From Pontibacterium granulatum (GTDB lineage Bacteria; Pseudomonadota; Gammaproteobacteria; Pseudomonadales; Balneatricaceae), in NCBI RefSeq assembly GCF_029961155.1, contig NZ_JASBRH010000030.1, forward strand, positions 1 through 48,749: a stretch of 48,749 bases of DNA, in the 5' to 3' direction. How positions within the stretch are numbered: position 1 is the stretch's first letter; the number at the start of each line of letters is the position of its first letter. This document shows, in pieces, positions 14,849-44,298 of the stretch. Both the position numbers and the translations under genes were made by a program. Under the pieces are notes generated by a model. That model had not been told where the DNA came from, did not search any database, and saw only the letters and a program-made list of their open reading frames with translations.

Positions 14849-17032
14849 ATGGAAATCAAAGTTAATTTTCTTGATAACCTCAGACTTGAAGCGAAGTTTG
14901 ATGATTACACCGTCATTGCCGACCAGCCTATTCGTTACAAAGGCGACGGCTCTGCGCCAAGTCCGTTTGATTACTTCCTGGCATCGTCTGCGATGTGTGC
15001 AGCGTACTTCGTAAAGGTTTACTGTAACGCCCGTGATATCCCAACCGACGATATCCGCATCTCGCAGAACAACATCGTTGATCCGGAAAACCGCTACAAC
15101 CAGGTTTTCCAGATCCATGTAGAGCTGCCGGAGCATATCTCCGATAAAGACCGCCAGGGCATTCTGCGTGCGATCGATCGCTGTACCGTGAAGAAGGTTG
15201 TGCAGACCGGACCTGAGTTCGTGATCGAACCGGTTGAAAACCTGGATGCCGACGCTTCCATCATGGCGATGGGTATGCCGGACGATGGCAACACCATGAT
15301 CCTGGGTAAAGACCTGCCGCTGGAGCAAACCATCGCTAATATGTCCGGCATGCTGGAAGCGCTGGGCATGAAGATCGAGATCTCGTCCTGGCGTAACATC
15401 GTGCCGAATGTATGGTCGCTGCATATCCGTGATGCTGCGTCTCCAATGTGCTTCACCAACGGTAAAGGTGCGACCAAAGAGAGCGCGCTGGCGTCTGCGC
15501 TGGGCGAGTTTATCGAGCGCCTGAGCTGTAACTTCTTCTACAACGACCAGTACTTCGGTGAAGAGCTGGCCAATGCCGATTTCGTTCACTACCCGAACGA
15601 GAAGTGGTTTGTGCTGAATCCGGATGACTCTATTCCGGAAGGTCTGCTGGATGATTACTGCCTAGAGATCTACGATCCGGAAGACGAGCTGTGTGGTTCC
15701 AACCTGATCGATACCAACTCCGGCAACATAGAGCGTGGTATCTGCGCGCTGCCGTTCGTACGTCAGTCTGACCAGGAAACGGTGTATTTCCCATCCAATC
15801 TGCTGGAAAACCTGTTCCTGAGTAACGGCATGAGTGCGGGTAACAACCTGTACGAAGCTAAGGTGCAGTGTCTGTCCGAGATCTTCGAACGTGCGGTAAA
15901 ACGCCAGATTATCGAAGAGGAGATTGTACTTCCAGACGTTCCGCAAGAGGTGTTGGAGAAATTCCCGGGCATCCTGGCAGGCATCAAAGAACTGGAAGAA
16001 CAGGGCTTCCCAGTTGTAGTGAAAGACGCCTCTCTGGGTGGTCAGTTCCCGGTGATGAGCGTGACGCTGATGAACCCGCGCACCGGCGGTGTATTCGCAT
16101 CCTTCGGTGCACACCCGAGTTTCGAGGTGGCGCTGGAACGAAGCCTCACCGAGCTGCTGCAAGGCCGCAGCTTCGAAGGTCTGAATGACGTGCCACGTCC
16201 AACCTTTAACAGCCTGGCAGTGCAGGAACCAAACAACTTCGTTGAGCACTTCATCGATTCAACCGGTGTGATCTCCTGGCGTTTCTTCAGCTCTAAGCAC
16301 GATTATGAGTTCTGTGAGTGGGACTTCTCCGGCACCAACGAAGAGGAATGTGATGGCCTGATGCAGATCCTCGAAGATATGGGCAAAGAGGTTTACGTTG
16401 CCACCTTCGACGACTTTGGTGCTTCCGCGTGTCGTATCGTCGTGCCGGGTTACTCCGAAGTGTATCCGGTGGAAGATCTGGTGTGGGACAACACCAACAA
16501 AGCGCTTCAGTTCCGCGAAAATATCCTCACCATCCACTCGCTGAATGATGAACAGCTGGCGGATCTGGTGGAGCGTCTGGAAGAGAGCGGTGAAGACAAC
16601 TACACCTTTATCCGCACCCTGATCGGCGTGGAGTTTGATGAAAATACCGTCTGGGGGCAGCTCACCGTACTGGAGCTGAAGATCCTGATCTACCTGGCGC
16701 TACAGCAGTTTGAAGAAGCGATCGAGCTGGTGGAAACCTTCCTGCAGTTCAATGACAACACCGTTGAGCGTGGCCTGTTCTACCAGGCGGTGAACGCGGT
16801 GCTGGAAATTGCGCTGGATGAAGATCTGGAACTGGACGATTACCTGCACAACCTGAGCCGCATGTTCGGTGAAGAGGTGATGGCAAACGTGGTTGATTCC
16901 CTCAACGGCGATGTGAAGTTCCACGGGCTGACACCAACCAATATGCAGTTGGAAGGTCTGGATAAGCATCTGCGACTGATCGAGAGTTACAAGAAGCTGC
17001 ATGCAGCGCGTGCGGCGAGGGCGGCGAAGTAA
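14849..17032 (+). CDS. ycaO: OsmC domain / YcaO domain fusion protein
   Basis: A 727-residue fusion. Residues 1-135 are OsmC-like, with GDGSAPSPFDYFLASSAMCAAYFVK containing the family cysteine. Residues about 195-560 form the YcaO ATP-binding domain, with GKGATKESALASALGEFIERLS, EAKVQCLSEIFERAVK and ALERSLTELLQGR carrying the conserved acidic and basic residues. The C-terminal 150 residues are a helical, repeat-like tail, as in E. coli YcaO. Stand-alone YcaO in E. coli aids RimO in methylthiolating ribosomal protein S12 (known); an added OsmC domain suggests thiol or peroxide chemistry nearby (inference). A terminator follows at once, so it is monocistronic. Two RidA genes come next. Confidence 0.9.
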   Translation: MEIKVNFLDNLRLEAKFDDYTVIADQPIRYKGDGSAPSPFDYFLASSAMCAAYFVKVYCNARDIPTDDIRISQNNIVDPENRYNQVFQIHVELPEHISDKDRQGILRAIDRCTVKKVVQTGPEFVIEPVENLDADASIMAMGMPDDGNTMILGKDLPLEQTIANMSGMLEALGMKIEISSWRNIVPNVWSLHIRDAASPMCFTNGKGATKESALASALGEFIERLSCNFFYNDQYFGEELANADFVHYPNEKWFVLNPDDSIPEGLLDDYCLEIYDPEDELCGSNLIDTNSGNIERGICALPFVRQSDQETVYFPSNLLENLFLSNGMSAGNNLYEAKVQCLSEIFERAVKRQIIEEEIVLPDVPQEVLEKFPGILAGIKELEEQGFPVVVKDASLGGQFPVMSVTLMNPRTGGVFASFGAHPSFEVALERSLTELLQGRSFEGLNDVPRPTFNSLAVQEPNNFVEHFIDSTGVISWRFFSSKHDYEFCEWDFSGTNEEECDGLMQILEDMGKEVYVATFDDFGASACRIVVPGYSEVYPVEDLVWDNTNKALQFRENILTIHSLNDEQLADLVERLEESGEDNYTFIRTLIGVEFDENTVWGQLTVLELKILIYLALQQFEEAIELVETFLQFNDNTVERGLFYQAVNAVLEIALDEDLELDDYLHNLSRMFGEEVMANVVDSLNGDVKFHGLTPTNMQLEGLDKHLRLIESYKKLHAARAARAAK

Positions 17033-20255: not shown

Positions 20256-21605
20256 TCAATACGGATAGTTCTCGATCTCTTCCCGTACCTTTTGCAACGC
20301 CCCATCCAACTGATCTATGCCTACAGAGCCTAGCGCCACTCTCAGGGCGTGAGGTATATATTCTCCGGTCGCAAACGGCTCGGCAGTTGATATGGAGATA
20401 TTGATGTTTAGTAGCGCTGTGGCGATTCTGTCTGCTCGAACCTCCTCCGGCAGGGGAAGCCAGAGAAAGTAGGAGCTTGGGTGGCAGATGTAATGCATCC
20501 CCCTAAAGACCTGTCTGGCGACAGCTTGTCTTTGTCGCGCGTCTTCGCGTTTCTCTAATTCCAGTTGGTTAACGGTGCCATCCTTGATCCAACGGCAGGC
20601 CAGCATGGTCATCAGGCCGGGGGTGTTCCAGGTTGTGGCGCGGATGGCGCGCTCAATCCTCGGGACCCACTCGGGCGGAGCGGTAATAAACCCAACGCGC
20701 AGTCCGGTGGCGATACTCTTGGAAATACCGGATACATACACAGTTCTTTCCGGTGCGAGAGCGGCGATCGGTGGCGGCGGATCTTCTGCATGGAAGGCGT
20801 AAGCGGCGTCCTCGATGATGATCAGGTCATGCTGTCGGGCGATCTCGATAAGTAGTTGCCGCTGTGCCAGACCCAGTACCCAGCCCATCGGGTTGTGCAG
20901 TGTAGGCATGGTGTATACGGCTCGGACGGATCGTGCTTGGCAGAGCTGTTCCAAGGCGATCAGGTCTGGGCCATGTTCGGAGAACGGTATTGGTGCTAAT
21001 TCCAGATGCTGGGCTTCGGCCACTGCTTTAAAGCCGGGATAGATCAGCGCATCCACGGCGACTACATCCCCCGGTTTCATCAGGCCCATCACGGTTGTTG
21101 CCAGACCGTGCTGGGCGCCACTCACAATCAGCACTTGCTCGGCATTGACTGACAGCTGCCTGTTTTTCAGGTGTTCCGCGATGATCGCGCGCTCGTGTTT
21201 GCGACCTGCGTGCGGTTGATAATGCAGCAGGGCTTCCAGGTCTCCGCTGGAGGCGAGTTTACGTAACGCGTTACGCAACAGGTCGGTTTGTCCCGGCAGT
21301 GAAGGGGAGTTGAAGTTCAGGTCCAGAACACCATCCGCCATCGCGGGTTGATCGATGCCGTGGTTGGGTGGCAGTCCGGTTTCACGCACAAAGGTGCCGC
21401 GCCCGGTTTCTCCACTGACCAAACCCATGCCTTCCAGCTCTGCGTATACGCGCGAAGCTGTAACCAGCGCGATACCGTGTTGTGCGGCGAGTCGCCTGTG
21501 CGTGGGTAACTGTGTGCCGGGTGGCAACTCACCCGAGCGGATATCGGCAGCGAATTGGTCCACTAACTGTTTGTAACGGGCGCGAGGCATGTGGATTGTA
21601 TCCAT
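20256..21605 (-). CDS. MocR-type GntR/aminotransferase transcriptional regulator
   Basis: A 449-residue fusion of a GntR winged helix (about residues 8-75, GELPPGTQLPTHRRLA) and a type I aminotransferase fold (about 95-449). The pyridoxal-phosphate site is intact: lysine 296 in SGISKSIATGLRVGF, aspartate 266 in IIEDAAYAFH and the NP pair in TLHNPMGW. MocR proteins bind PLP or PLP-amino acid adducts and regulate vitamin B6, GABA, taurine or other pathways. The gene is divergent from a DJ-1/PfpI protein, its probable target. The ATG at 21605 overlaps a palindrome; an internal ATG at 21590 is an alternative start. Confidence 0.9.
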   Translation of the reverse strand: MDTIHMPRARYKQLVDQFAADIRSGELPPGTQLPTHRRLAAQHGIALVTASRVYAELEGMGLVSGETGRGTFVRETGLPPNHGIDQPAMADGVLDLNFNSPSLPGQTDLLRNALRKLASSGDLEALLHYQPHAGRKHERAIIAEHLKNRQLSVNAEQVLIVSGAQHGLATTVMGLMKPGDVVAVDALIYPGFKAVAEAQHLELAPIPFSEHGPDLIALEQLCQARSVRAVYTMPTLHNPMGWVLGLAQRQLLIEIARQHDLIIIEDAAYAFHAEDPPPPIAALAPERTVYVSGISKSIATGLRVGFITAPPEWVPRIERAIRATTWNTPGLMTMLACRWIKDGTVNQLELEKREDARQRQAVARQVFRGMHYICHPSSYFLWLPLPEEVRADRIATALLNINISISTAEPFATGEYIPHALRVALGSVGIDQLDGALQKVREEIENYPY

Positions 21606-21626
21606 GACAATAATTTTATTGTCATG
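21603..21626. promoter_or_regulatory. Palindromic operator between MocR and DJ-1 genes
   Basis: CATGACAATAA (21603-21613) and TTATTGTCATG (21616-21626) are perfect complements around two bases. The palindrome covers the MocR start codon and lies 54 bases before the divergent DJ-1 gene. It is a likely MocR autoregulatory and target site. Confidence 0.6.
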
Positions 21627-21680
21627 ATGTTAGTGTGCACAATCGGATCTATCAACGGTAACAGATTCGAGGACAGTGTT

Positions 21681-22277
21681 ATGCATATCGCTATTTTGAC
21701 CTTTGATGGCTTCAATGAACTGGATTCCCTGATTGCACTGGGCATCCTCAATCGCATCAAGAAACCCGGTTGGCGGGTATCCATCGCCAGCCCTAGCGAA
21801 CGGGTGGAGTCCATGAACGGTGTGGTGATGGAGCGACATATTGATCTGCACGCAGCGAGTAGTGCAGATGTGGTGCTGGTAGGCAGCGGTATGAAAACTC
21901 GTGACGTGGTGGCTGATGGCTCGATTATGGCGCAACTGCGACTCGGTCCATCTCGCCAACTGATCGGCGCCCAGTGTTCCGGTGCGCTGGTATTGAGCAA
22001 ACTGGGTTTGTTGAAGGGTGTGCCCGCGTGTACCGATCTGACCACCAAACCTTGGATTGAGGCGACGGGTATAGAGGTGCTGGAGCAGGCGTTTTTCGCA
22101 CAGGGCAATGTTGCCACGGCGGGTGGCTGCCTGGCGTCTTCCTACTTGGCGTTATGGGTAATCGCACGTACCGAAGGCATCGATGCAGCGGCAAGTGCCA
22201 TGCACTATGTTGCGCCGGTTGGAGAGAAAGAGCGCTACGTGACATTGGCAATTAGCCATATTGAGCCATTTCTTTAA
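21681..22277 (+). CDS. DJ-1/PfpI family protein
   Basis: A 198-residue protein of the class I glutamine-amidotransferase-like (DJ-1/PfpI) fold, beginning MHIAILTFDGFNELD. The nucleophile elbow is IGAQCSGALVLSKLGLL, with cysteine in the expected position; the acidic partner is in the early DGFNELD strand. Members include chaperone/deglycase-like proteins, isonitrile hydratases and transcription-factor domains; I cannot choose between them. I selected ATG 21681 because the fold starts there; earlier in-frame codons lie within the operator region. It is divergent from the MocR regulator and probably controlled by it. Confidence 0.85.
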   Translation: MHIAILTFDGFNELDSLIALGILNRIKKPGWRVSIASPSERVESMNGVVMERHIDLHAASSADVVLVGSGMKTRDVVADGSIMAQLRLGPSRQLIGAQCSGALVLSKLGLLKGVPACTDLTTKPWIEATGIEVLEQAFFAQGNVATAGGCLASSYLALWVIARTEGIDAAASAMHYVAPVGEKERYVTLAISHIEPFL

Positions 22278-22440: not shown

Positions 22441-22698
22441 ATGAAGCTGCAAATCGGTGTGCTGCTACTGTTGTTCAGCGGTTCACTTTACAGCGCAGAA
22501 CTGGTGCTGAAGAACGGAAAGATCCTGAAAGTGGATGCCGAGTTTGGGCAGGCATCAGCATTGGTAGTGGATAACGGGCGGATTGTGGCAATAGGGGATG
22601 AGTCGGATGTGGCAAGCCACATCAACACAGGCACTCAAGTGGTTTACACAGCAGCTATACTGCCAACAGTGGTTGCCCAGGCTAATTGGCAACATTAG
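22441..22698 (+). pseudogene. Truncated amidohydrolase, N-terminal remnant
   Basis: An 85-codon frame with a good GGAGAGGAGAG ribosome region, a signal peptide (MKLQIGVLLLLFSGSLYSA) and then ELVLKNGKILKVDAEFGQASALVVDNGRIVAIGDESDV. This is the start of a YtcJ/imidazolonepropionase-like exported amidohydrolase. After about residue 65 homology ends, the family's metal-binding HxH strand is missing, and the frame stops. Nothing downstream supplies the 450 or so missing residues. It is probably a deletion remnant, perhaps left when the region to its right changed. Confidence 0.7.
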
Positions 22699-22786: not shown

Positions 22787-24436
22787 ATGGATTCCTCCAA
22801 CATTCGATCCTTGGTAATCGAGGACAATGCTGTCCACGCCAGATTGATCTTAAGTCTGCTCGCAAAAGCGGAAGCGGTTTCCTTCGATGTTGTACATGTT
22901 GATACCCTGACGGCCGGGCTGGCGCGCCTGGCACAGGGTGGAATCGACGTTGTCTTGTTGGATCTGGTTTTACCCGATAGTCAGGAGCTGGATACCTTTC
23001 TGCGCCTTCGCAAAGAAGCACCCGATATTCCGGTGGTCATTCTGTCGGGCCTGGAGGACATCAATCTCGCAGCCCGCGCGGTTGAGTCCGGCGCTCAGGC
23101 ATACCTGATTAAGGGGCAGATCAACAGCGCCCAGCTCGAACGATCCATTCGCTATGCCATTGAGCGGACCCGCGCTCAGAGCGGAGAGTGGGACTCGCCC
23201 ATGTTTCGATTGGCACAGCAGCAGTTCCTCAAAGCAGCGCAGATCATGGACCTTGACGACAATTTCCGCCAACGTCTGTTGTTTCCGCAGCGAACCCAGG
23301 TTGTGACCTTCCCCTTCCGTCGGGATAAACATGAGGAGGTGGAAACGGTCTTTGGTTACCGGGTGCAGCATGTTTTGACCATGGGGCCCACCAAGGGAGG
23401 CATTCGCTACCACCAGGAGGTTAACCTGGGTGAGGTTTCGGCACTGGCCATGTGGATGACCTGGAAGTGCGCCCTGATGCAGCTGCCCTTTGGTGGGGCG
23501 AAGGGCGGAGTGCGGGTCGATCCGACCGGCTTTTCACGTAAGGAACTACAGCGCCTGACCCGGCGTTTTACCTCGGAAATTATCGGTATGATCGGGCCCG
23601 ACAAGGATATCCCCGCGCCGGATATGGGCACCGATGAAAACGTGATGGCCTGGATTATGGATACCTACAGTCAGCAGGTGGGGTATTCCGTACCGGCGGT
23701 GGTGACTGGTAAGCCGGTAGTGCTTGGCGGATCTCTCGGCCGCAAAGAAGCCACCGGACGGGGTGTCGTTTATACCATCGAGGATGCGGCTAAGCACATG
23801 GGTATGACGCTGGATCAGTGCACGGCTGTGATTCAGGGCTTTGGTAATGTGGGGAGCAATACCGCCCGATTCCTCGCCGAGGATGGCGTCAAAATCGTAG
23901 CCGTCAGTGATGCCACCACCGGTATCTATAATCCCCGGGGTCTTTCCGTTGGCTCTCTGTTGGAGTACATCCGTGAACACCGTTTCCTGAAGGGTTATCC
24001 CGAAGGGGAGGAGATCAGCAACGCAGAGTTGCTGGAGTTGCCCTGTGACATCCTGGTACCCGCTGCGCTGCAGAATCAGATATCGGCAGAAAATGCGCCA
24101 CGTATCAATTGTAAGTTGCTGGCGGAAGGTGCCAACGGGCCGACGTCACTGGAAGCGGATGAAATTCTTAACAATAAGGGGATTTTTATCGTGCCGGATG
24201 TGCTGGCAAACGCCGGTGGGGTAACGGTTTCCTACTTTGAGTGGGTGCAGGGGACGCAGAACTATATGTGGTCGTTGGATGAGATTAATAGCCGGCTGCA
24301 CAAAATCATGACCACGGCGTTTCATGCCGCGCTTGAACGTTCGCAGCGGGATCATGTGGATATGCGGACCGCAGCATTGATCGAAGGCATCGACCGAATT
24401 ACCCAGGCGAAACTGTTACGGGGCCTTTTCCCCTGA
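22787..24436 (+). CDS. Response-regulator receiver fused to Glu/Leu/Phe/Val dehydrogenase
   Basis: A 549-residue fusion. Residues 5-125 are a receiver domain with the full active-site set: acidic pair E11-D12, phosphoacceptor D59 in DVVLLDLVLPD, S87 in VVILSG and K109 in AYLIKG. Residues about 138-549 form a complete glutamate-type dehydrogenase: K203 in MGPTKGGIRYH, K227 in MTWKCAL, K239 in PFGGAKGGV, catalytic D279 in PAPDMGT, Rossmann loop GFGNVGS at 351-357, and NAGGVTVSYFEWVQ. D375 at the end of the second Rossmann strand favours NAD+ (inference). Such an enzyme would deaminate glutamate, or make it from 2-oxoglutarate and ammonia. Two hybrid kinases ending in HPt domains follow on the same strand. 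I know no characterised protein with this architecture. Confidence 0.92.
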   Translation: MDSSNIRSLVIEDNAVHARLILSLLAKAEAVSFDVVHVDTLTAGLARLAQGGIDVVLLDLVLPDSQELDTFLRLRKEAPDIPVVILSGLEDINLAARAVESGAQAYLIKGQINSAQLERSIRYAIERTRAQSGEWDSPMFRLAQQQFLKAAQIMDLDDNFRQRLLFPQRTQVVTFPFRRDKHEEVETVFGYRVQHVLTMGPTKGGIRYHQEVNLGEVSALAMWMTWKCALMQLPFGGAKGGVRVDPTGFSRKELQRLTRRFTSEIIGMIGPDKDIPAPDMGTDENVMAWIMDTYSQQVGYSVPAVVTGKPVVLGGSLGRKEATGRGVVYTIEDAAKHMGMTLDQCTAVIQGFGNVGSNTARFLAEDGVKIVAVSDATTGIYNPRGLSVGSLLEYIREHRFLKGYPEGEEISNAELLELPCDILVPAALQNQISAENAPRINCKLLAEGANGPTSLEADEILNNKGIFIVPDVLANAGGVTVSYFEWVQGTQNYMWSLDEINSRLHKIMTTAFHAALERSQRDHVDMRTAALIEGIDRITQAKLLRGLFP

Positions 24437-24625: not shown

Positions 24626-27600
24626 ATGGGAGTTCGTGGTCGACTACTTTTAGCATTTTTTGCCATTAGTGCTTTTGCAGTGGGGGCTGCAGTGGCTGCA
24701 ATGGTTTCAATGCTGCAGGTTCGCGATAGCCTCTCTCTGATCACCCTCCATAAATTTCCCTCCGCCCTGGCGTCTCAGGAACTGGCACAACAGACGGCAA
24801 GGGTTGTTGCGGCAGCCCCTGCTCTGATCACGGTCAGCACACTCGATCAGTATGACGAAGAATCCAACAAGATCGGGAAAGAAGTTGAAAGGCTAAATGA
24901 GCTGCTCAGTGTCGTAGAACATACGTGGTCTGATACATCTGATTACCGGGCGATTTCAGAAGCGGTCGAAAGACTGACGAGCAATATTGATGCTGTTGAC
25001 GAACTGATTGTCCGACGCCTGCAGATTGCCGACCAAAAGCAAGAGGCGCTGAACAACGCAACCAGGGTTCATCAGAAGATCCAGCAGCTACTGGCACCAT
25101 GGATGACCGTTATGGAGCACGACTTGAAGCAGTGGAATGCAGTGATCAGTAGCACTGATCCATCTGCGCCGGAACAGGCCGATGTGATCGACCAAATGGT
25201 GACATTGTTGCCTTTATACCAGGCCCTCACTACCACTCAACTGGAAGCCTCCAAGGTCAGTGATTCTTTACATCAAATAACGACTACCAGCGATGAGCGT
25301 CAATTAACGATCTTGACGGTGCGAATGGGTACGTCGCTGCGCAAAATTGGTCGGCAACGGGATGCTTTCAGTTCCAAGCTGCAGGAACATCTCTGGCCAG
25401 CTCTTTTGGAGTTGGAGCTCTATGCCACAGGAGTTGATAACATTCCTGATCTGCGTGACCAGGAACTGGAGATCCTGGTTGAAGCCGAAGCGTTGTCGAT
25501 CGAAAACGGCAAACTGTCTCTGACGGTCACGGAAGTTGTGGACAGCTTGGTCGAGAGTGCAAAAAAAGTGGTTGCCAGTGCGGATCAGGATGTCGTTGCT
25601 GTTCAGAACCTAAGTACCGGTATTCTGATTGTCATTGTGGTGCTGAGCCTGATCAGTTCAAGCTTGATTGTATGGCTGTATGTCGGTCGTAACCTGATCG
25701 CCCGTTTAACGGCCTTAAGTAGCCGGATGTTACAGATCGTCGACGGTGACCTTAAGTCGCCGCTTCCGGCAGGCGGTCCTGATGAGATTGGTCGTATGGC
25801 GAACGCGCTTAGCGTGTTTCGTGATTCCGTTGAGGCTCGGGACCAGCTCATGGAGGCGTTGAAGAGCAAGAATGTTGAGCTGCAGGAGGCGTTCGAAGAC
25901 CTGAAACGAACCACGCTGGACCGGGACCGTTCGCTTGAGGAGACGAGCATGCTCCAAACAGTGATGGCCAGCATGGATCAGGGACTGGTAGCTTTCGATC
26001 AAAACTTAAGGCTCCTGATCTGGAACCAGCGATTCCTCGATATTTGTGAATATCCTGAAGAACTGATGGAGCCCGGCCGTCCACTGCAGGATTTTCTGAA
26101 CTACGATGTCCTCCGGCACGAGTTCGGCCCGGGTAACCCGCAAGAACAAATCAGGGTGCGCCTGGAGATGGCAAAACAGGGTGAGCAGCCGCATGAGGAG
26201 AGAACGCGACCCAACGGCACCATCGTGGAGATTCGCTATTCGCCGATTCCCGGCGGCGGCCATGTATCCACCTACACGGACATCACCAGGCGCAAGGAGA
26301 TGGAAGCGGAGATCGTGCACGCATTGCAGCAAGCGGACGCCGCCAACCAGGCGAAGAGCGAATTTCTCGCCAACATGAGCCACGAGATACGTACCCCGAT
26401 GAACGGCATCATCGGTATGTCGGAACTGCTCGGGAACACCAACCTGTCGCCGCAGCAGCGGGAAGACCTGAACATGATCCAGCAGTCGGCCGATACCTTG
26501 CTGCGGTTGCTGAACGACATTTTGGACTTTTCCAAGATCGAAGCCGGCAAGTTGGAGCTGGAGGCGATCGACTTCAATTTGCGGGATACCCTGGACGATA
26601 CCCTGCAGACCCTCGCTTTGCGGGCATCCGAGAAGGGCCTGGAACTGGTCGGCCATATTCCACCGGAGGTTCCCGATGCGTTGGTTGGTGATCCGGGACG
26701 CCTGCGGCAGATAATCGTCAACCTGGTTGGGAACGCCATCAAGTTCACCGAACAGGGGGAAATCCTGGTTGATGTCTGCCAACTGGCGGTGAAAGAAGAG
26801 GAGGTTTCACTCCAGTTTTCCGTCAGTGATACAGGCATTGGTATTCCGGCAGAACAGCAGGGATACATCTTCGAATCGTTCAGTCAGGTCGATAGCTCTA
26901 TCTCACGCCGCTTCGGTGGAACCGGTTTGGGACTAGCCATCTCTTCCCAGTTAGTGGGGATGATGGGGGGCGAGATGTCGCTGGAAAGTACCGTAGGTGA
27001 GGGCACCACTTTTACTTTTTCGCTGACGCTCAGGCGGCAACAGGGTTTGGTCACCATACAGCCGAGAGGGCTGTCTGCATTGCACCAGCTGCCGGTGCTG
27101 ATCGTTGACGATAACAGCACCAATCGGCGCATACTGAAGGAGATGTTGCTCAATTGGGCGATGCAGCCGGACAGCGTGGCCTCCGGTGCCGAGGCGCTGG
27201 ATGCACTTGAACAGGCCCACAAAGCCGGAACGCATTATCACCTGATGTTGCTGGATGCGATGATGCCAGGCATGGATGGTTTTGCAGTGGCGCGGCGCGT
27301 ACGTTCGGATCCCAAGTATGCGGCGATGGCGATCATCATGTTGTCCTCCATAGGACAATCCGAAAAAGCAGCAGACCTCCACGAGAAGGGGATCGCCCGT
27401 TTCCTGACCAAGCCGGTCAAACAATCTAACCTGCTCGATGCCATTCTCAGCGTGGAGGGAGGGGAGACCCAGCCGGAGGCTGTGCCAGAGTCGGAGGAAA
27501 TGATTGTGCAGGACACAGCTGCGTTGCATATTCTTCTTGCCGAAGACGGGCTGATAAACCAGAAGGTAGCAACCAAGTTGTTGGAACAGCGAGGGTACTT

Positions 27601-28351
27601 TGTTGATATAGCCAATAACGGCCAAGAAGCAGTCGAGAGGTACAAACAAAAGCACTTTGATCTGGTGCTGATGGATATACAGATGCCCGAGATGGATGGT
27701 TTTGAAGCGACTAAACATATTCGTAAATTGGAAGCCGCTGGTGCGTCGCACCTTCCGATCATCGCCATGACCGCCAATGCAATGAAGGGTGATCGGGAGC
27801 AATGCCTGAAGGCTGGCATGGATGGTTACATCCCGAAACCGATCCGTTCTGAGCAGCTTTACGAAACCATCGAGCAGGTGCTTAACGCGGCTCCCATAGA
27901 AGAACGCATGCGGGGAGTGGGTGACGTAGCGGGAGCTATCCAGCAAGAGCCTCTAGCGCAAGAAACTCAAACCCAGGAAGTAACTGCGGACACAGCGTCA
28001 GCGTCCCTTGAGGTGTTTGATCCAGATGGCGCCTTGGAGCGGGTTGGTGGTGATATGGAGGTCTTAGAGGATCTGGTCACACTGTTTTACGATGAGTGTC
28101 CTAAATTGATGACCGAGATCCAGACTACGCTGGCTACAGGAGACGCCGTAGCGTTAAGGCGAGCAGCGCATACGTTAAAAGGGAGTGCGGCCGTTTTTGC
28201 GGCGAAACGCACCGTTAACACCGCGCTTCAGCTGGAGCTTATGGCGCGAGACGGGAAGCTTGACACCGCCCCGGAAACATTGGTGACCCTTGAAATGGAG
28301 GTTGAGCGGTTGAAGCAGGCACTGGAATCTCGATTTCCACCCGCTGTCTGA
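24626..28351 (+). CDS. Membrane-bound hybrid histidine kinase (TorS-like sensor, PAS, REC-REC-HPt)
   Basis: A 1241-residue kinase. Membrane helix 1 is at about 5-30, and a 300-residue helical periplasmic sensor like that of TorS runs to helix 2 at about 331-353. HAMP follows (354-407), then a PAS domain (about 440-555). The HisKA histidine is H586 in [15 protein letters not shown]. The ATPase domain (about 690-803) has its N, G1 (DTGIGI) and G2 (GGTGLGL) boxes. Receiver 1 has D877, receiver 2 D1017, and the HPt domain H1182 in AAHTLKGSAA. All phosphotransfer residues are present. It lies 189 bases after the dehydrogenase fusion. From the HisKA domain on it is a close paralogue of the next gene; parts of the HATPase and HPt DNA are identical. 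Confidence 0.93.
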   Translation: MGVRGRLLLAFFAISAFAVGAAVAAMVSMLQVRDSLSLITLHKFPSALASQELAQQTARVVAAAPALITVSTLDQYDEESNKIGKEVERLNELLSVVEHTWSDTSDYRAISEAVERLTSNIDAVDELIVRRLQIADQKQEALNNATRVHQKIQQLLAPWMTVMEHDLKQWNAVISSTDPSAPEQADVIDQMVTLLPLYQALTTTQLEASKVSDSLHQITTTSDERQLTILTVRMGTSLRKIGRQRDAFSSKLQEHLWPALLELELYATGVDNIPDLRDQELEILVEAEALSIENGKLSLTVTEVVDSLVESAKKVVASADQDVVAVQNLSTGILIVIVVLSLISSSLIVWLYVGRNLIARLTALSSRMLQIVDGDLKSPLPAGGPDEIGRMANALSVFRDSVEARDQLMEALKSKNVELQEAFEDLKRTTLDRDRSLEETSMLQTVMASMDQGLVAFDQNLRLLIWNQRFLDICEYPEELMEPGRPLQDFLNYDVLRHEFGPGNPQEQIRVRLEMAKQGEQPHEERTRPNGTIVEIRYSPIPGGGHVSTYTDITRRKEMEAEIVHALQQADAANQAKSEFLANMSHEIRTPMNGIIGMSELLGNTNLSPQQREDLNMIQQSADTLLRLLNDILDFSKIEAGKLELEAIDFNLRDTLDDTLQTLALRASEKGLELVGHIPPEVPDALVGDPGRLRQIIVNLVGNAIKFTEQGEILVDVCQLAVKEEEVSLQFSVSDTGIGIPAEQQGYIFESFSQVDSSISRRFGGTGLGLAISSQLVGMMGGEMSLESTVGEGTTFTFSLTLRRQQGLVTIQPRGLSALHQLPVLIVDDNSTNRRILKEMLLNWAMQPDSVASGAEALDALEQAHKAGTHYHLMLLDAMMPGMDGFAVARRVRSDPKYAAMAIIMLSSIGQSEKAADLHEKGIARFLTKPVKQSNLLDAILSVEGGETQPEAVPESEEMIVQDTAALHILLAEDGLINQKVATKLLEQRGYFVDIANNGQEAVERYKQKHFDLVLMDIQMPEMDGFEATKHIRKLEAAGASHLPIIAMTANAMKGDREQCLKAGMDGYIPKPIRSEQLYETIEQVLNAAPIEERMRGVGDVAGAIQQEPLAQETQTQEVTADTASASLEVFDPDGALERVGGDMEVLEDLVTLFYDECPKLMTEIQTTLATGDAVALRRAAHTLKGSAAVFAAKRTVNTALQLELMARDGKLDTAPETLVTLEMEVERLKQALESRFPPAV

Positions 28352-28404: not shown

Positions 28405-28427
28405 TTTCCCCTGATCAGAAGGGGAAA
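28405..28427 (+). terminator. Hairpin between the two kinase genes
   Basis: TTTCCCCT (28405-28412) pairs with AGGGGAAA (28420-28427) around a 7-base loop. Only a weak T-tract follows (TCAGTTTTAAC), so it is at best a leaky terminator that could lower expression of the second kinase. Confidence 0.4.
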
Positions 28428-28458
28428 TCAGTTTTAACAGAAAGATGGGGATATGCTC

Positions 28459-31400
28459 ATGAAGCAATCACCCTCAAGAGACCCTAACAATACCAGCCAG
28501 GCATTGGCAGAGAGTCAGCGTCGTCTTGCCAATCTGATGGCCAACCTGCCCGGGTTTGCCTATCGATGTCTCAATACCGAAGAGTGGCCGATGGAGTTTA
28601 TCAGCGAAGGCTGTCTAGGCTTGACCGGCTATTCACCTGAGGCGTTGGAAATCGGTGGGACTGTGACCTACGGTGAGCTGATCCATCCGGACGACAGGGA
28701 GCTGCTTTGGGAGCAGATTCAGCAGGCACTAGCAGATCGATATCCCTACCGTGTCGAGTACCGTATCCGAACGCGCGATGGGCAGGAAAAGTGGGTGTGG
28801 GAACAGGGCTGTGGTGTTTATGCTGCCGACGGAGAGCTCCAGGCGCTGGAAGGTTTTATTACCGATATCAGCGAGCAGAAGCAGGCCCAGGCGCAATGGG
28901 ATCTTACGTCCCAAGAGCTGGAAGAGAGCCGTCGTCGCCTTGCCACGCTGATAGCCAACCTACCGGGGGCAGCCTATCGGGTGCGTAACACTCCGGAGTG
29001 GCCTACCGAGTTTGTCAGTGAGGGTTGCCTGGAGCTGACTGGTTACTCACCCCAGGAGCTGGATCACTTTGGCCTCATCGTATACCCGGAAGACCAGGAG
29101 CGTATTTGGGAGACCATCCAGAAGTCGCTACGCGATCATTATCCCTATCAGTTTGAGCACCGAATTCCGACTAAGGACGGTAAAGAGAAGTGGGTGTGGA
29201 CCCAGGGCTGCGGTGTTTATAGCCCGGATGGCGAAGTACTGGCGTTGGAAGGTTTTGTTACTGATATCACCGAGCAGAAACGCCTCCAGGCGCAGAGAGA
29301 CAGTACGACTCGGGAGCTGGCGGAGAGTCAGCGTCGCTTGGCAACGTTAATTGCAAACCTCCCCGGTGTTGTCTACCGGGGGCTTGATATGCCGCAGTCG
29401 TACCTCGAGTTCGTTAGTGGTGGTTGTGAGGAGCTGACGGGATATACGCCGGAGGAGCTTGTCGCCGGTGAGATCGTTGATTTCACTGAATTGATCCATT
29501 CCGAAGACCGGGGTGGGGTGTACGAACAGATTCGGCAGGCATTGGATGAGCGGCGTCCCTATCGCGTGGAATACCGCATCCGTACGCGCACAGGTGAGGA
29601 AAAGTGGGTGTGGGAGCAGGGCTGTGGTGTGTTTGATTTCGATGGAGACATAGTGGCGCAAGAGGGATTTTTAACCGATATCACTGAACAGAAGCAGGCC
29701 CAGGCCCAAGCGCAAGCACTACAGGAGGAGTTGCTCACCATCAATGCCAAGCTCGAGAAACAGTTTGAAGCGCGCACTGCCGAATTAAAGGCCTCCCACG
29801 AGGAGCTGCGAAAAGCCAAAGTTGCTGCTGAACAAGCGTCAAAGGCGAAGAGTGAATTTCTGGCCAATATGAGCCATGAGATTCGTACCCCCATGAACGG
29901 CGTGATCGGTATGTCCGAACTGCTTGGTAATACCATGCTTTCAACTCAGCAACGGGAGTACCTGGGCATGATCCAGCAATCGGCGGACACCTTATTGAGG
30001 TTGTTGAACGATATCCTCGATTTCTCGAAGATCGAAGCCGGTAAGCTGGAGTTGGAGGAGATAGAGTTTAATCTAAGGGATACTCTGGGCGATACCCTAC
30101 AGGCGCTTGCGGTTAGAGCCTCTGAAAAGGGGCTGGAGCTGGTTGGGCATATTCCTCCGGAGGTTCCCGATGCGTTGGTTGGTGATCCGGGACGCCTGCG
30201 GCAGATAATCGTCAACCTGGTTGGGAATGCCATCAAGTTTACCGAGCAAGGGGAAATACTGGTTGAAGTAAGGACGCAAGCGGTCACAGCAGAAGAGGTT
30301 TCGCTGCTGTTTTCCGTCAGTGACACAGGCATTGGCATTCCGCCAGAACAGCAAAAACATATTTTTGATTCCTTCAGTCAGGTTGACAGTTCCATCTCCC
30401 GTCGCTTTGGCGGTACCGGCCTGGGATTGGCCATATCCACCCAACTGGTGGATATGATGGGCGGCGAGATGTCGTTGGACAGTACTGCAGGAGTGGGCAC
30501 AGCCTTTCACTTCACCTTGGTCCTGAAGCGCCAACAGGACGTTTCTGCCGAGCCGCCGAGGGATTTGTCCGCTCTACATGAACTGCCGGTACTGATTGTT
30601 GACGACAATAAGACCAACCGGCACATCCTGGAGGAGATCCTGCTTAATTGGGCCATGAAACCTGATACTGCTGCTTCAGGAGCTGAAGCACTGGATAAAC
30701 TGGAACAGGCCCGGACGGCTGGTAAACCTTATCACCTGATGCTGTTGGATATGATGATGCCCGGCATGGATGGTTTCGAGGTGGCGCGGCAGTTAAGGGC
30801 CGATCCTCGTTTCGCGGAGATGGCAATTATTATGCTGTCCTCCGTCGGGCAGTCTGAAAAAATGGTAAGCCTTCAGGATAGGGGAATCGCCCGTTGCCTG
30901 ACCAAGCCGGTGAAACAGTCCAATCTGTTGGATGTCATTCTTAGTCTGAAGGGATTGATTACCCAGCCAGAGCAGGTGGCGGCCACGGACGCGGTATCCA
31001 CGCCAGGCGCGGCGGCGCTGCATGTTCTGCTCGCCGAAGACGGGCTGATAAACCAGAAGGTTGCTACCAAGTTACTGGAGCAGCGCGGTTATACAGTCGT
31101 TATCGCCAGTAACGGCAAGGAAGCAGTTGAGCGGTATACGAGAGAAAATTTCGATTTGGTATTGATGGATGTACAGATGCCGGAGATGGATGGCTTCCAG
31201 GCCACCCAGCGTATTCGGGAAATGGAAGCCGATAGCGCATCGCACCTGCCGATCATCGCCATGACCGCCAATGCGATGAAGGGCGACCGCGAGCAATGCC
31301 TGAACGCCGGGATGGATGACTATATTCCGAAACCAATCCGTTCCCAGCAATTTTACGACACGATTGAGCAGGTGGTGAAAGCGGCGGCATCTGAAGCAAG

Positions 31401-31875
31401 CCAGCCTGCAACGGGCGCTACCCAGGTGGCTTCACTTCAGAAAACTTCAGTAGAAGAGGCACGCAGTAAAGGGATTGAGAGCAAAGAGACTCAGGCCAAA
31501 GAGAAGGTTGTGGAAACAGTACCTGCTCCCCTTGAGGTGTTTGATCCAGATGGCGCCTTGGAGCAGGTCGCAGGCGATATGGGGGTCTTAGAGGATCTGG
31601 TCACACTGTTTTACGACGAATGCCCTAAATTAATGACCGAGATCCAGACTACGCTGGCTGCAGGAGACGCCGTAGCGTTAAGGCGAGCAGCGCATACGTT
31701 AAAAGGGAGCGCTGCCGTTTTTGCGGCGAAACGCACCGTTAACACCGCGCTCCAGCTGGAGCTTATCGCGCGAGACGGGAAGCTTGAGTCAGCCTCTGAT
31801 ATCTTGGAGACCTTGGAAGCAGACGTCGAGCAGCTCAAACAGGCGCTGCAGTCTCATTTTCCTCCCGCAGACTGA
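28459..31875 (+). CDS. Soluble hybrid histidine kinase with three tandem PAS domains, REC-REC-HPt
   Basis: A 1138-residue cytoplasmic kinase; no membrane segment. Three PAS_3-type repeats start at about residues 22, 156 and 289, each with ANLPG-x-x-YR, a GC-x-x-LTGY-(S/T)P helix and an EKWVW-x-QGCGV strand. A coiled coil (about 415-460) links to HisKA H473, the ATPase domain, receiver 1 (D764), receiver 2 (D904) and HPt (H1079 in AHTLKGSAA). I chose ATG 28459 because GGGG lies 8 bases before it; ATG 28453 is too close. From the HisKA domain on it is paralogous to the preceding kinase. It probably senses a cytoplasmic ligand, redox state or light; no cofactor residue is obvious. It may share the same downstream target. 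Confidence 0.92.
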   Translation: MKQSPSRDPNNTSQALAESQRRLANLMANLPGFAYRCLNTEEWPMEFISEGCLGLTGYSPEALEIGGTVTYGELIHPDDRELLWEQIQQALADRYPYRVEYRIRTRDGQEKWVWEQGCGVYAADGELQALEGFITDISEQKQAQAQWDLTSQELEESRRRLATLIANLPGAAYRVRNTPEWPTEFVSEGCLELTGYSPQELDHFGLIVYPEDQERIWETIQKSLRDHYPYQFEHRIPTKDGKEKWVWTQGCGVYSPDGEVLALEGFVTDITEQKRLQAQRDSTTRELAESQRRLATLIANLPGVVYRGLDMPQSYLEFVSGGCEELTGYTPEELVAGEIVDFTELIHSEDRGGVYEQIRQALDERRPYRVEYRIRTRTGEEKWVWEQGCGVFDFDGDIVAQEGFLTDITEQKQAQAQAQALQEELLTINAKLEKQFEARTAELKASHEELRKAKVAAEQASKAKSEFLANMSHEIRTPMNGVIGMSELLGNTMLSTQQREYLGMIQQSADTLLRLLNDILDFSKIEAGKLELEEIEFNLRDTLGDTLQALAVRASEKGLELVGHIPPEVPDALVGDPGRLRQIIVNLVGNAIKFTEQGEILVEVRTQAVTAEEVSLLFSVSDTGIGIPPEQQKHIFDSFSQVDSSISRRFGGTGLGLAISTQLVDMMGGEMSLDSTAGVGTAFHFTLVLKRQQDVSAEPPRDLSALHELPVLIVDDNKTNRHILEEILLNWAMKPDTAASGAEALDKLEQARTAGKPYHLMLLDMMMPGMDGFEVARQLRADPRFAEMAIIMLSSVGQSEKMVSLQDRGIARCLTKPVKQSNLLDVILSLKGLITQPEQVAATDAVSTPGAAALHVLLAEDGLINQKVATKLLEQRGYTVVIASNGKEAVERYTRENFDLVLMDVQMPEMDGFQATQRIREMEADSASHLPIIAMTANAMKGDREQCLNAGMDDYIPKPIRSQQFYDTIEQVVKAAASEASQPATGATQVASLQKTSVEEARSKGIESKETQAKEKVVETVPAPLEVFDPDGALEQVAGDMGVLEDLVTLFYDECPKLMTEIQTTLAAGDAVALRRAAHTLKGSAAVFAAKRTVNTALQLELIARDGKLESASDILETLEADVEQLKQALQSHFPPAD
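28510..29722 (+). repeat. Three in-frame PAS repeats of about 400-414 bp
   Basis: The repeat units start at about 28510, 28924 and 29323 (138 and 133 codons apart). They share the framework ES-x-RRLA-x-L-x-ANLPG at the start and LTDI-(S/T)-EQK at the end. Their DNA has diverged widely at synonymous sites, so this is an old internal duplication, not a recent one. Confidence 0.8.
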
Positions 31876-34656: not shown

Positions 34657-35469
34657 TCAGTGACGTGCCCGGAAATGCCATTCGCCTGGCGCGATATCGT
34701 TGGTGACCGCTTTCTTGATCGAGTCCTCGATCTCAGGTGAATCCAATTCGTACAAACCGCACAGCGCAAGTGCTCGACGCACATCCACGGATTGCCCCAG
34801 ATACTCGTACATCACCCGTGCAGCACATGGCATACGTTCGCCACTGCCGGATACACCGAGCTTAAGCCCGGTCAGGCGGGAGACGCGGTTTTTGAAGGTC
34901 GGGAAGAGGATGGTCTGGGTTATTTCGTGGCTAGTCAGCGACTCGTAGTCCACCATGAAAATACGGTCGGTGAGGAAGTTCGCCATGCCCAGATAAACAC
35001 CGTGATAGGTTTTTTCATGTGGGCTCTCTTTGAGGCGTTCGGTGCGCTGATAATAGATCTTGTCATCCTGCCGCTCCAGGCAAACCAGCATTCGAAGTAA
35101 TTTTCCGGGGCAGGCCATGGAGATGTGGTATTCGAAGTAGTAGCCCAGGTACTTATCGAGACCGGTATTGCCCAGCTTGCCGATATGCTCCATATGTTCG
35201 GTTTCCGGCCGGCCCGAATCTTTCGGTGTTGTGGCCGTTGGGCGTACCTGAATCAGGCGCTGGAATTGGCTATGGGGCATCAGGATCTCATGCTCTTCCA
35301 CACCAAAGAAGTCGCAAAAGCGGCGCATGGTGTTCGCAGAGGGCATAGAGCGACCGCTCAGGTAACGGTTAAACTGTGGGCGGTTGATGTTGAGACGACG
35401 GCACACCTCGGCAATGGATTTGTAGTAACTGCACAGCAGTCGGAGGTTGCGCGGAAAGTCTTGTGTCAT
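34657..35469 (-). CDS. XRE-type helix-turn-helix regulator
   Basis: A 270-residue protein. Residues about 5-62 form a Cro/CI-type helix-turn-helix (SIAEVCRRLNINRPQFNRYLSGR, SMPSANTMRRFCDFFGV). The remaining 200 residues are a separate alpha/beta domain rich in aromatic residues (YYFEYHISMACPGKLLRM), which I cannot assign to a named ligand-binding family. It lies downstream of a terminator that closes the symporter gene, so it is likely a separate unit. Such regulators often bind small ligands through the C-terminal half; the targets are unknown. Confidence 0.8.
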   Translation of the reverse strand: MTQDFPRNLRLLCSYYKSIAEVCRRLNINRPQFNRYLSGRSMPSANTMRRFCDFFGVEEHEILMPHSQFQRLIQVRPTATTPKDSGRPETEHMEHIGKLGNTGLDKYLGYYFEYHISMACPGKLLRMLVCLERQDDKIYYQRTERLKESPHEKTYHGVYLGMANFLTDRIFMVDYESLTSHEITQTILFPTFKNRVSRLTGLKLGVSGSGERMPCAARVMYEYLGQSVDVRRALALCGLYELDSPEIEDSIKKAVTNDIAPGEWHFRARH

Positions 35470-35651: not shown

Positions 35652-37181
35652 TTACACCAGTTCGGCTTCTTTCTCGTCCTCTTTCTGGGAAGCGGTGGCT
35701 TTAACACCGCAACGTTTTTCCCAGAAGGTCGCGTTCTTGATACCCAGTTTTGCCGGGTTGAACTCGTATACTGCTACACCAGCTTTACGCTGAGTTTCGT
35801 AGTCCTTCAGAGCTTTCAGCGCTGGTTTGGACATGAAGAAGATGATCAGGATGCCGACGATGTTCAGCCATGCCATCAGGCCTACGCCTACGTCACCCAT
35901 CGCCCATGCCAGGTTGGCAGTTTTAACGGCACCGTAGAAAGTCGCAGCCATCAGAACCAGCTTCAGCAGACCGGTCAGGCCTGGGATGTCGAAGGAGCGT
36001 TTCAGGTAGGCAACGTTAGTTTCTGCGATGTAGTAGTACGCCAGAATGGTGGTGAAGGAGAAGAAGAACAGCGCGAATGCGATGAACGGATTACCTACAC
36101 CTGGCAATACGCTTTCGATTGCCATCTGTGTGAACATCGGGCCGTTAGCGGCGATATCAGTGGAGATGTTCTGTACCAGGAATGCATCACCTGCACCGTG
36201 TACGTTGTACGCGCCGGTGATCAGGATCATGAATGCAGTTGCAGAACATACGAACAGGGTGTCGATGTATACAGAGAATGCCTGTACCAGACCCTGCTGT
36301 GCCGGGTGCTCAACTTCCGCTGCTGCGGCAGCGTGAGGACCTGTACCCTGACCTGCTTCGTTGGAGTAGACGCCACGCTTAACACCCCAGCCAATTGCAG
36401 CGCCCAGGCCTGCCATTGGAGTAAATGCGTCTTCCAGGATCATTCCGACGATACCTGGCAGCATGTCGACGTTCAGCAGAACGATAACAGCGGCGATGAT
36501 GATGTACGCCAGTGCCATGAAAGGTACAACAACCTGGGTGAAGTTAGCGATACGCTTAACGCCACCGAAGATGATGAAGCCCAGGATCAGAACAACGATG
36601 GTACCGGTCATGATCTTAGCCATGCTCAGGGTGCCCATAGACGTCTCGATCATTGCGCCAGTACCGAATGCCTGCTCTACAGCGTTACCGATACTGTTAG
36701 CCTGCACGCCCGGCAGGAAAACACCACACGCCAGAATGGTGGAAATAGCGAAGACCCAAGCGAACCATTTCTGACCCATCGCTTTTTCGAAGTAGTAAGC
36801 CGGACCACCACGGTACTGACCTTCGTGTTCTTCTTTGTAAATCTGTGCCAGAGTCGATTCTGCGTATGCAGTAGCCGCGCCGAAGAACGCCACAACCCAC
36901 ATCCAGAATACTGCACCAGGACCGCCGAAGCCGATCGCTGCCGCAACACCTGCGATGTTACCGGTACCTACACGGCCAGACAGGGATACAGCCAGGGCCT
37001 GGAAGGAAGAGATACCGTGTTCGGAGCTTTTACCTGACAGCAGCAGGTTCCACATTTCACGGAACATGCGTACCTGTACGAAGCGGGTCATGATCGAGTA
37101 GAACAGACCAGCGCCCAGGCAGAGGTAAATCAGCGCCGGACTCCAGATTATGCCGTTCATAAAGTCGACAAATGCTTGCAT
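35652..37181 (-). CDS. Alanine/glycine:cation symporter (AGCS family)
   Basis: A 509-residue carrier with about 10-11 membrane helices. It has the AGCS hallmarks SLSGRVGTGNIAGVAAAIGFGGPGAVFWMW near residue 70, GGPAYYFEKAMGQ, and GWGVKRGVYSNEAGQGTGPHAAAAAE near residue 265. These carriers import alanine or glycine with sodium or protons; alanine/glycine with Na+ is the likely case in a marine cell (inference). The gene is on the same strand as the asparaginase gene, 121 bases after it, so both could be expressed together for amino-acid use. I looked for a glycine riboswitch in the 121-base leader and saw none. Confidence 0.93.
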   Translation of the reverse strand: MQAFVDFMNGIIWSPALIYLCLGAGLFYSIMTRFVQVRMFREMWNLLLSGKSSEHGISSFQALAVSLSGRVGTGNIAGVAAAIGFGGPGAVFWMWVVAFFGAATAYAESTLAQIYKEEHEGQYRGGPAYYFEKAMGQKWFAWVFAISTILACGVFLPGVQANSIGNAVEQAFGTGAMIETSMGTLSMAKIMTGTIVVLILGFIIFGGVKRIANFTQVVVPFMALAYIIIAAVIVLLNVDMLPGIVGMILEDAFTPMAGLGAAIGWGVKRGVYSNEAGQGTGPHAAAAAEVEHPAQQGLVQAFSVYIDTLFVCSATAFMILITGAYNVHGAGDAFLVQNISTDIAANGPMFTQMAIESVLPGVGNPFIAFALFFFSFTTILAYYYIAETNVAYLKRSFDIPGLTGLLKLVLMAATFYGAVKTANLAWAMGDVGVGLMAWLNIVGILIIFFMSKPALKALKDYETQRKAGVAVYEFNPAKLGIKNATFWEKRCGVKATASQKEDEKEAELV

Positions 37182-41403: not shown

Positions 41404-41410
41404 CCTGCTT

Positions 41411-41442
41411 GCTCTGCGGTCGGCCTGTCGCAGAGCTTTTTT
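41411..41442 (+). terminator. Rho-independent terminator between dctP and dctQ
   Basis: GCTCTGCG (41411-41418) pairs perfectly with CGCAGAGC (41429-41436), followed by TTTTTT. Inside the operon, it would cut permease expression relative to dctP or mark a separate promoter for dctQM. Confidence 0.85.
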
Positions 41443-41514
41443 ATTCAAGACGTGCTTGCTTTTCCATAGCTAGGGTGGAGGGGCAAGCTCGGTCTATAAA
41501 AAGAGTGTTGCTGT

Positions 41515-42063: not shown

Positions 42064-42075
42064 GAGTAATTCCCG

Positions 42076-43365: not shown

Positions 43366-43421
43366 TAGTCCGGGAGGCAGATCATAGGCGGAGATTGGGT
43401 CATAATCGGCTTTCCGCCATC

Positions 43422-44295: not shown

Positions 44296-44298
44296 GGA

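Follow-up and report, generated by a model that had tools for sequence, protein, structure and literature searches.

The window analyzed here is the whole of a 48,749-nucleotide stretch of Pontibacterium granulatum DNA (contig NZ_JASBRH010000030.1, forward strand), and the gene of interest, at positions 22787-24436, encodes a receiver domain (REC) fused to a glutamate dehydrogenase (GDH). With a probability of about 0.68, this REC-GDH protein serves as the output of a multistep phosphorelay, with phosphorylation setting GDH activity. The sequence provides an apparently intact receiver, an apparently intact GDH and a junction of fixed length. Outside a group of planctomycete-type loci, it also provides a linked hybrid histidine kinase gene that appears to be co-inherited with the fusion.

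The REC-GDH fusion protein

The fusion gene and its parts are as follows.

22787..24436, + strand: REC-GDH fusion gene, 549 amino acids (aa), stop codon included; 41 relatives have the same architecture
22811..23140, + strand: receiver domain, aa 9-118 (Pfam PF00072 Response_reg, E 1e-14)
22961-22963 and 23111-23113, + strand: codons of D59 and K109; the receiver sites are E12, D13, D59, S87, Y106 and K109
23126..23197, + strand: receiver helix α5 (aa 114-133) and a four-residue hinge (aa 134-137) leading into GDH helix 1 (AlphaFold2 secondary structure)
23285..23671, + strand: GDH domain I, ELFV_dehydrog_N, aa 167-295, with K203, K227, K239 and D279 (Pfam PF02812, E 2e-52)
23726..24424, + strand: GDH nucleotide-binding domain, ELFV_dehydrog, aa 314-546, with a GFGNVG loop (Pfam PF00208, E 9e-82)

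The gene is one unbroken open reading frame (ORF) of 549 codons and a stop, with an ATG start, and each of the three Pfam matches exceeds its curated cut-off. The receiver scores 54.6 bits against PF00072 (cut-off 30.2), which places it among the CheY-like domains. Both ELFV domains are complete (positions 1-128 of 129 for PF02812 and 1-241 of 241 for PF00208), and residues 138-549 align end to end with the GDH of Thermotoga maritima (PDB: 1b3b, residues 4-415, E 2e-142). An earlier note on this DNA had described a receiver fused to a complete glutamate-type dehydrogenase; the single 549-residue frame, the domain scores, the 41 relatives and the alignment with the T. maritima enzyme bear out both parts of that description. 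The note had also named individual residues. While D59, K109 and the catalytic D279 were correctly placed, the acidic pair of the receiver is E12/D13 rather than E11/D12. The best NCBIfam matches were GDH equivalogs, both under their cut-offs (GdhA_Arch, 490.5 against 750 bits; GdhB_Halo, 481.7 against 620 bits); since these models are archaeal, the shortfall says only that the fusion is not one of those equivalogs.

An AlphaFold2 model calculated from a 50-sequence alignment (A1) had a mean predicted local distance difference test score (pLDDT) of 88.9 and a predicted template modeling score (pTM) of 0.77. It comprises the receiver, a long α5 helix (aa 114-133), the four-residue hinge and a GDH that opens with a helix at aa 138-153. 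The top Foldseek matches of the model were GDHs, including 1b26 with a TM-score of 0.93 by target length and 55% identity. Residues K203, K227, K239, D279 and S482 are taken to be K89, K113, K125, D165 and S380 in the numbering of clostridial GDH. From the GDH literature, these are presumably the catalytic and glutamate-binding residues. A specificity for leucine, phenylalanine or valine was considered and is not favored, as K203 and S482 are GDH-like under these presumed roles and the nearest solved structures are GDHs.

Conservation of the receiver, the enzyme and the junction

Conservation was assessed in an alignment of 42 fusions, the window included, from Gamma- and Alphaproteobacteria, Gemmatimonadota, Myxococcota, Bradymonadales and Planctomycetota. 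Near copies are present among them, namely eight and six from two groups of Rhodopirellula-family genomes and nine from rhizobial plasmids. Four loci were dropped before counting: L001 (the window itself), L096 (the same gene as L140), L101 (the same gene as L021) and L120, a fusion cut by its contig with receiver residues that are intact by eye. Loci L121-L139 served for neighborhoods.

In the receiver pocket, D59 and K109 are kept in all 42 fusions, E12 in 41, D13 in 40 and S/T87 in 39; the aromatic switch Y/F106 is kept throughout. The window has the whole active site (E12, D13, D59, S87, K109), with serine at residue 87 where 35 of the 42 have threonine. The five GDH residues, the catalytic D279 of the earlier note among them, are each conserved in 42 of 42. 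The stretch from K109 to Q146, which covers α5 and the junction and runs into the first GDH helix, is 38 residues long in every fusion. Such constancy would fit a stiff mechanical link between the two halves better than a flexible tether. An EWxSPM-like motif at the junction is also found in standalone GDHs that nest among the fusions (see below); the motif thus belongs to the enzyme clade, with the receiver placed directly before it.

Nonsynonymous divergence (dN) was lower than synonymous divergence (dS) over ten fusion pairs wherever dS was computable, one receiver value not being so. In the closest pair, the window and L009, dN was 0.082 for the receiver and 0.056 for the GDH, with dS about 2 and near saturation. 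Both halves look to be under purifying selection.

Hybrid histidine kinases linked to the fusion gene

Two hybrid histidine kinase genes lie downstream of the fusion on the same strand.

24626..28351, + strand: hybrid histidine kinase 1, 1241 aa (HAMP, PAS_7, HisKA, HATPase, REC, REC, Hpt)
28453..31875, + strand: hybrid histidine kinase 2, 1140 aa (three PAS_3, HisKA, HATPase, REC, REC, Hpt)

Kinase 1 starts 189 bases past the fusion stop codon; the span considered in the earlier note, 22787-24436, ends short of both genes (24626-28351 and 28453-31875). The cores of the two kinases are 77% identical. The sensor region of kinase 1 is TorS-like and HBM-like, with both matches under the Pfam cut-off. 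Against NCBIfam, kinase 1 scored 598.8 for TorS (cut-off 676.5) and 516.1 for BarA (cut-off 890), and kinase 2 scored 523.9 for BarA and 512.3 for TorS, so that neither protein reaches either equivalog. On the features that a sequence can speak to, the fusion belongs to the response-regulator class, and within the window two linked kinases stand as its putative cognate kinases.

The search for receiver-ELFV relatives and the comparison of neighborhoods that the earlier note had proposed gave 41 further fusions. A hybrid kinase with a kinase-REC-REC-Hpt core adjoins the fusion gene in 20 of 41 evaluable cases, which divide sharply: 20 of 20 outside the planctomycete-type group against 0 of 21 inside it. 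The linked set consists of the window, L009, L017-L019, L023-L026, L029, L140 and nine plasmids (L141-L149). The linked kinase of L009 is cut by its contig, that of L024 lies upstream and that of L026 is convergent. L020 could not be evaluated since the contig ends within its next gene; that gene opens with a CHASE sensor, as in its tree sister L029. In two Sinorhizobium fredii plasmids (L144, 9796-12643; L145, 9673-12656), the linked kinase was deposited as two ORFs, reflecting either a sequence error or a real break.

HisKA, HATPase, two receivers and Hpt end every complete linked kinase scanned with Pfam (the two of the window plus eight, one and three others). By eye, the H-box histidine, both aspartates and the Hpt histidine are present in 11 of 11 aligned linked kinases. 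The sensors differ among loci, being TorS-like with PAS, PAS only, CHASE, GAF with PAS, YfiR-like or none recognized; although PAS_7 recurs, no common signal is readable from them. As a control, loci with 5 kb on both sides were compared. A kinase was present within 5 kb at 1 of 37 standalone GDH loci compared to 11 of 29 fusion loci, the latter made up of 1 of 19 planctomycete-type loci and 10 of 10 others.

The planctomycete-type group comprises L021, L022, 18 further loci from the family of genome G418, and L016, placed here for the gene families that its flanks have in common with L021. L016 does not group with planctomycetes alone in the tree, and the group is not a clade; were it counted outside, the linkage would read 20 of 21. 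Other kinases do occur near some members. In L121, two kinase genes lie 1.3 and 3.4 kb away (the nearer with 36% identity over 395 core residues), and a different kinase lies 3.6 kb away in L129. Strong unlinked relatives of the kinase were found in three planctomycete-type genomes, with scores of up to 627 bits (G418), 621 bits (G419) and 586 bits (G413). Fusions of this group may use unlinked kinases; alternatively, their receiver may be undergoing drift, as the altered pockets of L113-L115 (described below) suggest. A conserved gene context was sought and rejected: neighbors recur only within close relatives and no partner is common to the group, the exception being scattered recurrent families such as sulfatase-like genes.

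Co-inheritance of the kinase and the fusion

In each of nine other genomes with a complete linked kinase, that kinase is the best match in the genome to the core of window kinase 2. The next-best kinase is 150-322 bits lower in six of the nine, and the other three genomes gave no second match at E 1e-60. For the window genome, the scores are 1477 (self) and 1071 for the linked pair of kinases and 315 for the next kinase. G003 stands outside this comparison, its linked kinase being cut by the contig. The search scored 77 of 105 candidates in G000 and 77 of 87 in G424, where a stronger unscored kinase is unlikely.

Distances between kinase cores correlate with those between REC-GDH proteins (r = 0.95, P = 1e-4, 12 pairs, with near copies left out and kinase 2 standing for the window). 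The correlation is 0.94 with the receiver alone and 0.93 with the GDH alone. Read at face value, it shows genes that travel together and not proteins that touch, and joint descent alone would suffice for it. In Ensifer, S. chiapasense and S. fredii NXT3, the fusion/kinase pair sits among different neighbors in each case; the pair therefore seems to move as a two-gene unit.

Distribution and origin

A scan of genome contigs identified at least 12 full-length relatives with 63-72% identity. The gammaproteobacterial hosts are Zobellella, Aestuariicella, Halomonas stenophila and one metagenome-assembled genome (MAG). Further hosts are two Gemmatimonadota MAGs, a MAG labeled Latescibacterota, a Myxococcales MAG and Lujinxingia (Bradymonadales). 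Rhodopirellula and a Planctomycetaceae MAG represent the Planctomycetota, and L016 is a taxonomically unassigned MAG. The Latescibacterota label may be wrong given that its fusion is 96% identical to a Gemmatimonadetes one. This distribution is a lower bound, with rhizobia absent from the matches listed in the contig scan. Nine plasmid-borne fusions with 69-70% identity are found in Sinorhizobium and Ensifer, pNGR234b of S. fredii NGR234 among them, and the rhizobial fusion/kinase pairs are carried on large plasmids.

Whole-genome searches, each counting the genome of the window, detected the full-length fusion in 2 of 57 relatives, among them 2 of 5 genomes in the genus, and showed it to be rare in the order (2/390), the class (1/369) and the phylum (2/398). 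Of 241 genomes in the family to which the Rhodopirellula genome belongs, 24 gave a match, made up of 19 full fusions, four standalone enzymes and one sequence cut by its contig. A chance fusion confined to one strain is ruled out by relatives across phyla. The protein appears to be rare yet widely scattered, a pattern consistent with horizontal transfer.

A tree of the GDH domain was built from 63 rows, being the 33 fusions then known and 30 chosen standalone enzymes. The 33 fusions and seven of the standalone enzymes form one clade (support 99/98). The fusion/standalone label needs three changes on this tree, compared to a mean of 21.3 when shuffled, with 0 of 500 shuffles as low. Repeated independent fusions are thus disfavored, short of proof of a single origin, and one gain followed by two losses of the receiver would be compatible with the three changes. 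The nested standalone enzymes (L116-L119, L027, L028 and L030) keep the EWxSPM-like amino terminus and have no receiver. For four of the seven (L116 read as L139, L027, L028, L030), no kinase of this kind was found nearby; the remaining three have a flank of only about 1.5 kb.

Metabolic and genomic context

Among 15 fusion genomes examined, GDH-180 is present in seven. Four (G414, G415, G416, G419) have no ELFV-family match besides the fusion and gave no GDH-180; in these genomes of unstated completeness the fusion may be the only GDH. The window genome has two GDH-180 genes and three other ELFV relatives. Since the latter are weaker, the fusion is its only strong match to a classical small GDH.

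Genes for amino acid use are found near the REC-GDH module of the window. A sodium:alanine-type symporter (35655-37181) and an asparaginase/glutaminase (37306-38322), both on the opposite strand, lie about 4-6 kb past the kinases near a helix-turn-helix regulator (34657-35466). In an Ensifer adhaerens plasmid (L142, 1-7275), genes for methylaspartate mutase, methylaspartate ammonia-lyase and fumarate hydratase stand beside the REC-GDH pair, suggesting glutamate catabolism. Just upstream of the window fusion, an 85-residue ORF (22441-22695) has a weak match to the amino terminus of a HUTI-like amidohydrolase (22.8 against a cut-off of 25.5 bits); lacking the rest of the enzyme, it looks like a gene remnant.

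The window has other features as well. TRAP transporter genes (DctP, DctM) at 40393-47420 are followed by an opposite-strand CHASE5 hybrid kinase with REC and Hpt domains, accompanied by a family 3 solute-binding protein; this is a second, different relay in the window. An OsmC-YcaO fusion at 14849-17032 belongs to a known family (TIGR03549, 1458 against a cut-off of 900 bits). A MocR-type regulator at 20256-22277 is near EhuR (389.8 against a cut-off of 480 bits) and is slightly overlapped by a DJ-1/PfpI gene on the other strand.

Proposed mechanism and alternatives

In the proposed route, the hybrid kinase would sense a periplasmic or PAS signal and autophosphorylate on histidine. The phosphoryl group would then pass from the kinase histidine to a receiver aspartate, to the Hpt histidine and finally to D59 of REC-GDH. 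From the receiver, α5 would lead through the four-residue hinge into GDH helix 1, beside domain I from which the hexamer is built. Phosphorylation would most likely alter REC-REC contacts on the hexamer and hence GDH activity, with activation mildly preferred over inhibition as the direction. Such a relay would set the flux between glutamate, 2-oxoglutarate and ammonium quickly and without transcription. Phosphotransfer from the linked kinase, the effect on the enzyme and its sign, the part played by the hexamer and the signal are what we infer from the arrangement of domains and genes. Osmotic or nitrogen shifts are candidate signals because most of the named hosts outside the rhizobia are, we assume, marine or saline, and glutamate is an osmolyte. 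The earlier note's view of a genuine response regulator with an intact GDH output is well supported by the pocket, the junction length, the linked kinase and the distances that track each other. More broadly, we lean toward REC-GDH and its hybrid kinase being a self-contained, horizontally mobile two-gene module with an oxidoreductase of core metabolism as the direct output of the relay; in such a module a variable sensor would be combined with a constant relay core, junction and enzyme.

Several observations weigh against phosphorelay control. Half of the fusions, 21 of 42 and all of planctomycete type, lack an adjacent kinase of this core. Some pockets are altered: L113 lacks S/T87, L114 lacks E12, D13 and S/T87, and L115 lacks D13 and S/T87. 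Loss of the D59 pocket among relatives had been put forward in the earlier note as grounds for refutation. D59 itself is kept in 42 of 42, and what is lost is S/T87 in three, of which two also lack D13. The three proteins, all planctomycete, retain D59 and K109. With the intact L098 they share one weakly supported branch, all originating from the planctomycete family search, and they offer natural test cases for receiver decay. The dN of the receiver exceeds that of the GDH in 9 of 10 fusion pairs. The seven standalone GDHs nested in the clade indicate that the enzyme can manage without a receiver. Two of the linked kinases depart from the norm in receiver 1 when inspected by eye, with VDN replacing the usual VDD in L018 and arginine replacing the usual lysine in L019. 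A standalone GDH from outside the clade (L015, 1-2850) has a kinase-like ORF with 34% identity only 70 bases away on the other strand; given its short flanks, this locus was left out of the count of 1 in 37. Weak terminator-like stems follow the fusion (24419-24435) and lie between the kinases (28405-28427), so co-transcription of the fusion and the kinases is not certain, though a promoter and terminator scan of the window found a number near the chance level. Finally, the AlphaFold model is of a monomer (pTM = 0.77) and leaves the position of the receiver on the hexamer unfixed.

Some of these observations would be expected if the receiver were a structural or localizing module that docks the GDH to a membrane kinase or another partner, or stabilizes the hexamer, while catalysis is unaffected by phosphorylation. 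The pockets eroded in 3 of 42 fusions, the planctomycete-type half without an adjacent kinase of this type and the nested standalone enzymes that lost or never had a receiver all agree with such a role. A pure scaffold, however, need not keep D59 and K109 in 42 of 42 proteins or a linked relay kinase, and we regard this explanation as unlikely. Slightly less likely again is a flow of information in reverse, with the GDH half as a sensor in the manner of a trigger enzyme. On binding glutamate, 2-oxoglutarate or NAD(P)H, the GDH half would alter phosphorylation of the receiver or its contact with the kinase, so that the protein informs the relay of the nitrogen status; alternatively, it may serve as a phosphate sink. 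The same gene linkage and conserved pocket would be expected, the fixed junction could act in either direction, and the linked kinases own two receivers and an Hpt domain that could serve other outputs elsewhere in the genome. Yet the five GDH residues are kept in 42 of 42 as in a working enzyme, and no second response regulator lies beside the pair in three annotated plasmid loci, where the only regulators are of the LysR, MurR/RpiR and GntR types.

The earlier note had raised a sequencing error that joins two genes. To the joining of a receiver gene and a gdh gene by an assembly error or frameshift we attach next to no probability. It is refuted by the 41 relatives of the same architecture, nine rhizobial plasmid records among them, and by the fixed length of the junction; three deposited plasmid records annotate the fusion as a single coding sequence. 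Phosphorelay control of the GDH through D59 is the reading that we prefer.

Significance and comparison with known systems

Transcription, second messengers and motility are the targets usually attributed to two-component systems. If the preferred reading is true, REC-GDH would be the first case known to us of two-component control of glutamate/2-oxoglutarate flux by phospho-aspartate on the enzyme itself. The receiver shares a chain with an enzyme that stands where carbon and nitrogen metabolism meet, and in many cases a co-inherited relay kinase is linked to the fusion. Should phosphorylation tune the GDH, there would be a fast line from an outside signal to the glutamate and 2-oxoglutarate pools, on which PII, NtrC and osmotic balance depend. 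Since S. fredii NGR234 is genetically manipulable and carries the module on a plasmid, the question is directly testable. The natural receiver-enzyme junction, with its fixed length, may also provide a model on which phospho-control could be engineered into oligomeric enzymes.

In the titles and abstract openings of the full-text literature searched, as far as partially listed and with subscription papers outside it, no description of a REC-GDH protein was found. This agrees with the earlier note, which knew of no characterized protein like this one. The statement needs qualifying insofar as the P2CS database paper of 2009 (PMC2716373, Table 1) lists glutamate dehydrogenase (EC 1.4.1.3) as a 'Probable' enzyme in two-component proteins; the passages covered give no protein, organism, partner or mechanism for the entry. 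In the portions covered of three other papers, PMC12918730 (GrtKR) concerns a DNA-binding regulator, PMC4426382 only a gdhB-pleD neighborhood in Wolbachia relatives, and PMC1183210 does not consider other enzymatic outputs. In plasmid records, three of the rhizobial proteins are named 'Glu/Leu/Phe/Val dehydrogenase dimerization domain-containing protein'. As far as we have seen, REC-GDH is a conserved and apparently so far unstudied kind of response regulator, combining a receiver with a GDH output and, in half of its members, a co-inherited tripartite kinase.

The closest known enzymes are the hexameric T. maritima GDH (PDB: 1b3b, 1b26), over the whole of which residues 138-549 of the fusion can be aligned, and bacterial GDHs of the RocG/GudB type. 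Unlike the fusion, the T. maritima structures have chains of about 415-424 residues without an amino terminal receiver, and to our knowledge these GDHs are not phosphorelay outputs. CheB (a methylesterase), PleD (a diguanylate cyclase) and PorX (with a PglZ domain) have an amino terminal receiver and a carboxy terminal enzyme under phospho-aspartate control. The fusion has the same order of receiver and enzyme. While the outputs of CheB, PleD and PorX act in signaling or modification, that of the fusion is an oxidoreductase of central metabolism.

The window kinases have HisKA-HATPase-REC-(REC)-Hpt cores in common with hybrid kinases of the BarA/TorS/ArcB type, and TIGR02956 and PRK11107 are their top NCBIfam matches, under the TorS and BarA cut-offs. 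Unlike those kinases, which are linked to a DNA-binding regulator, the window kinases are linked to an enzyme gene. Control of GDH by phosphorylation has a counterpart in Actinobacteria, where the FHA protein GarA targets GDH-180. In the parts covered of two papers on the GarA/OdhI-PknG system (PMC5448819, PMC12321487), a separate regulator protein and a Ser/Thr kinase are employed. In contrast, the putative phospho-acceptor of the fusion lies in the enzyme's own chain.

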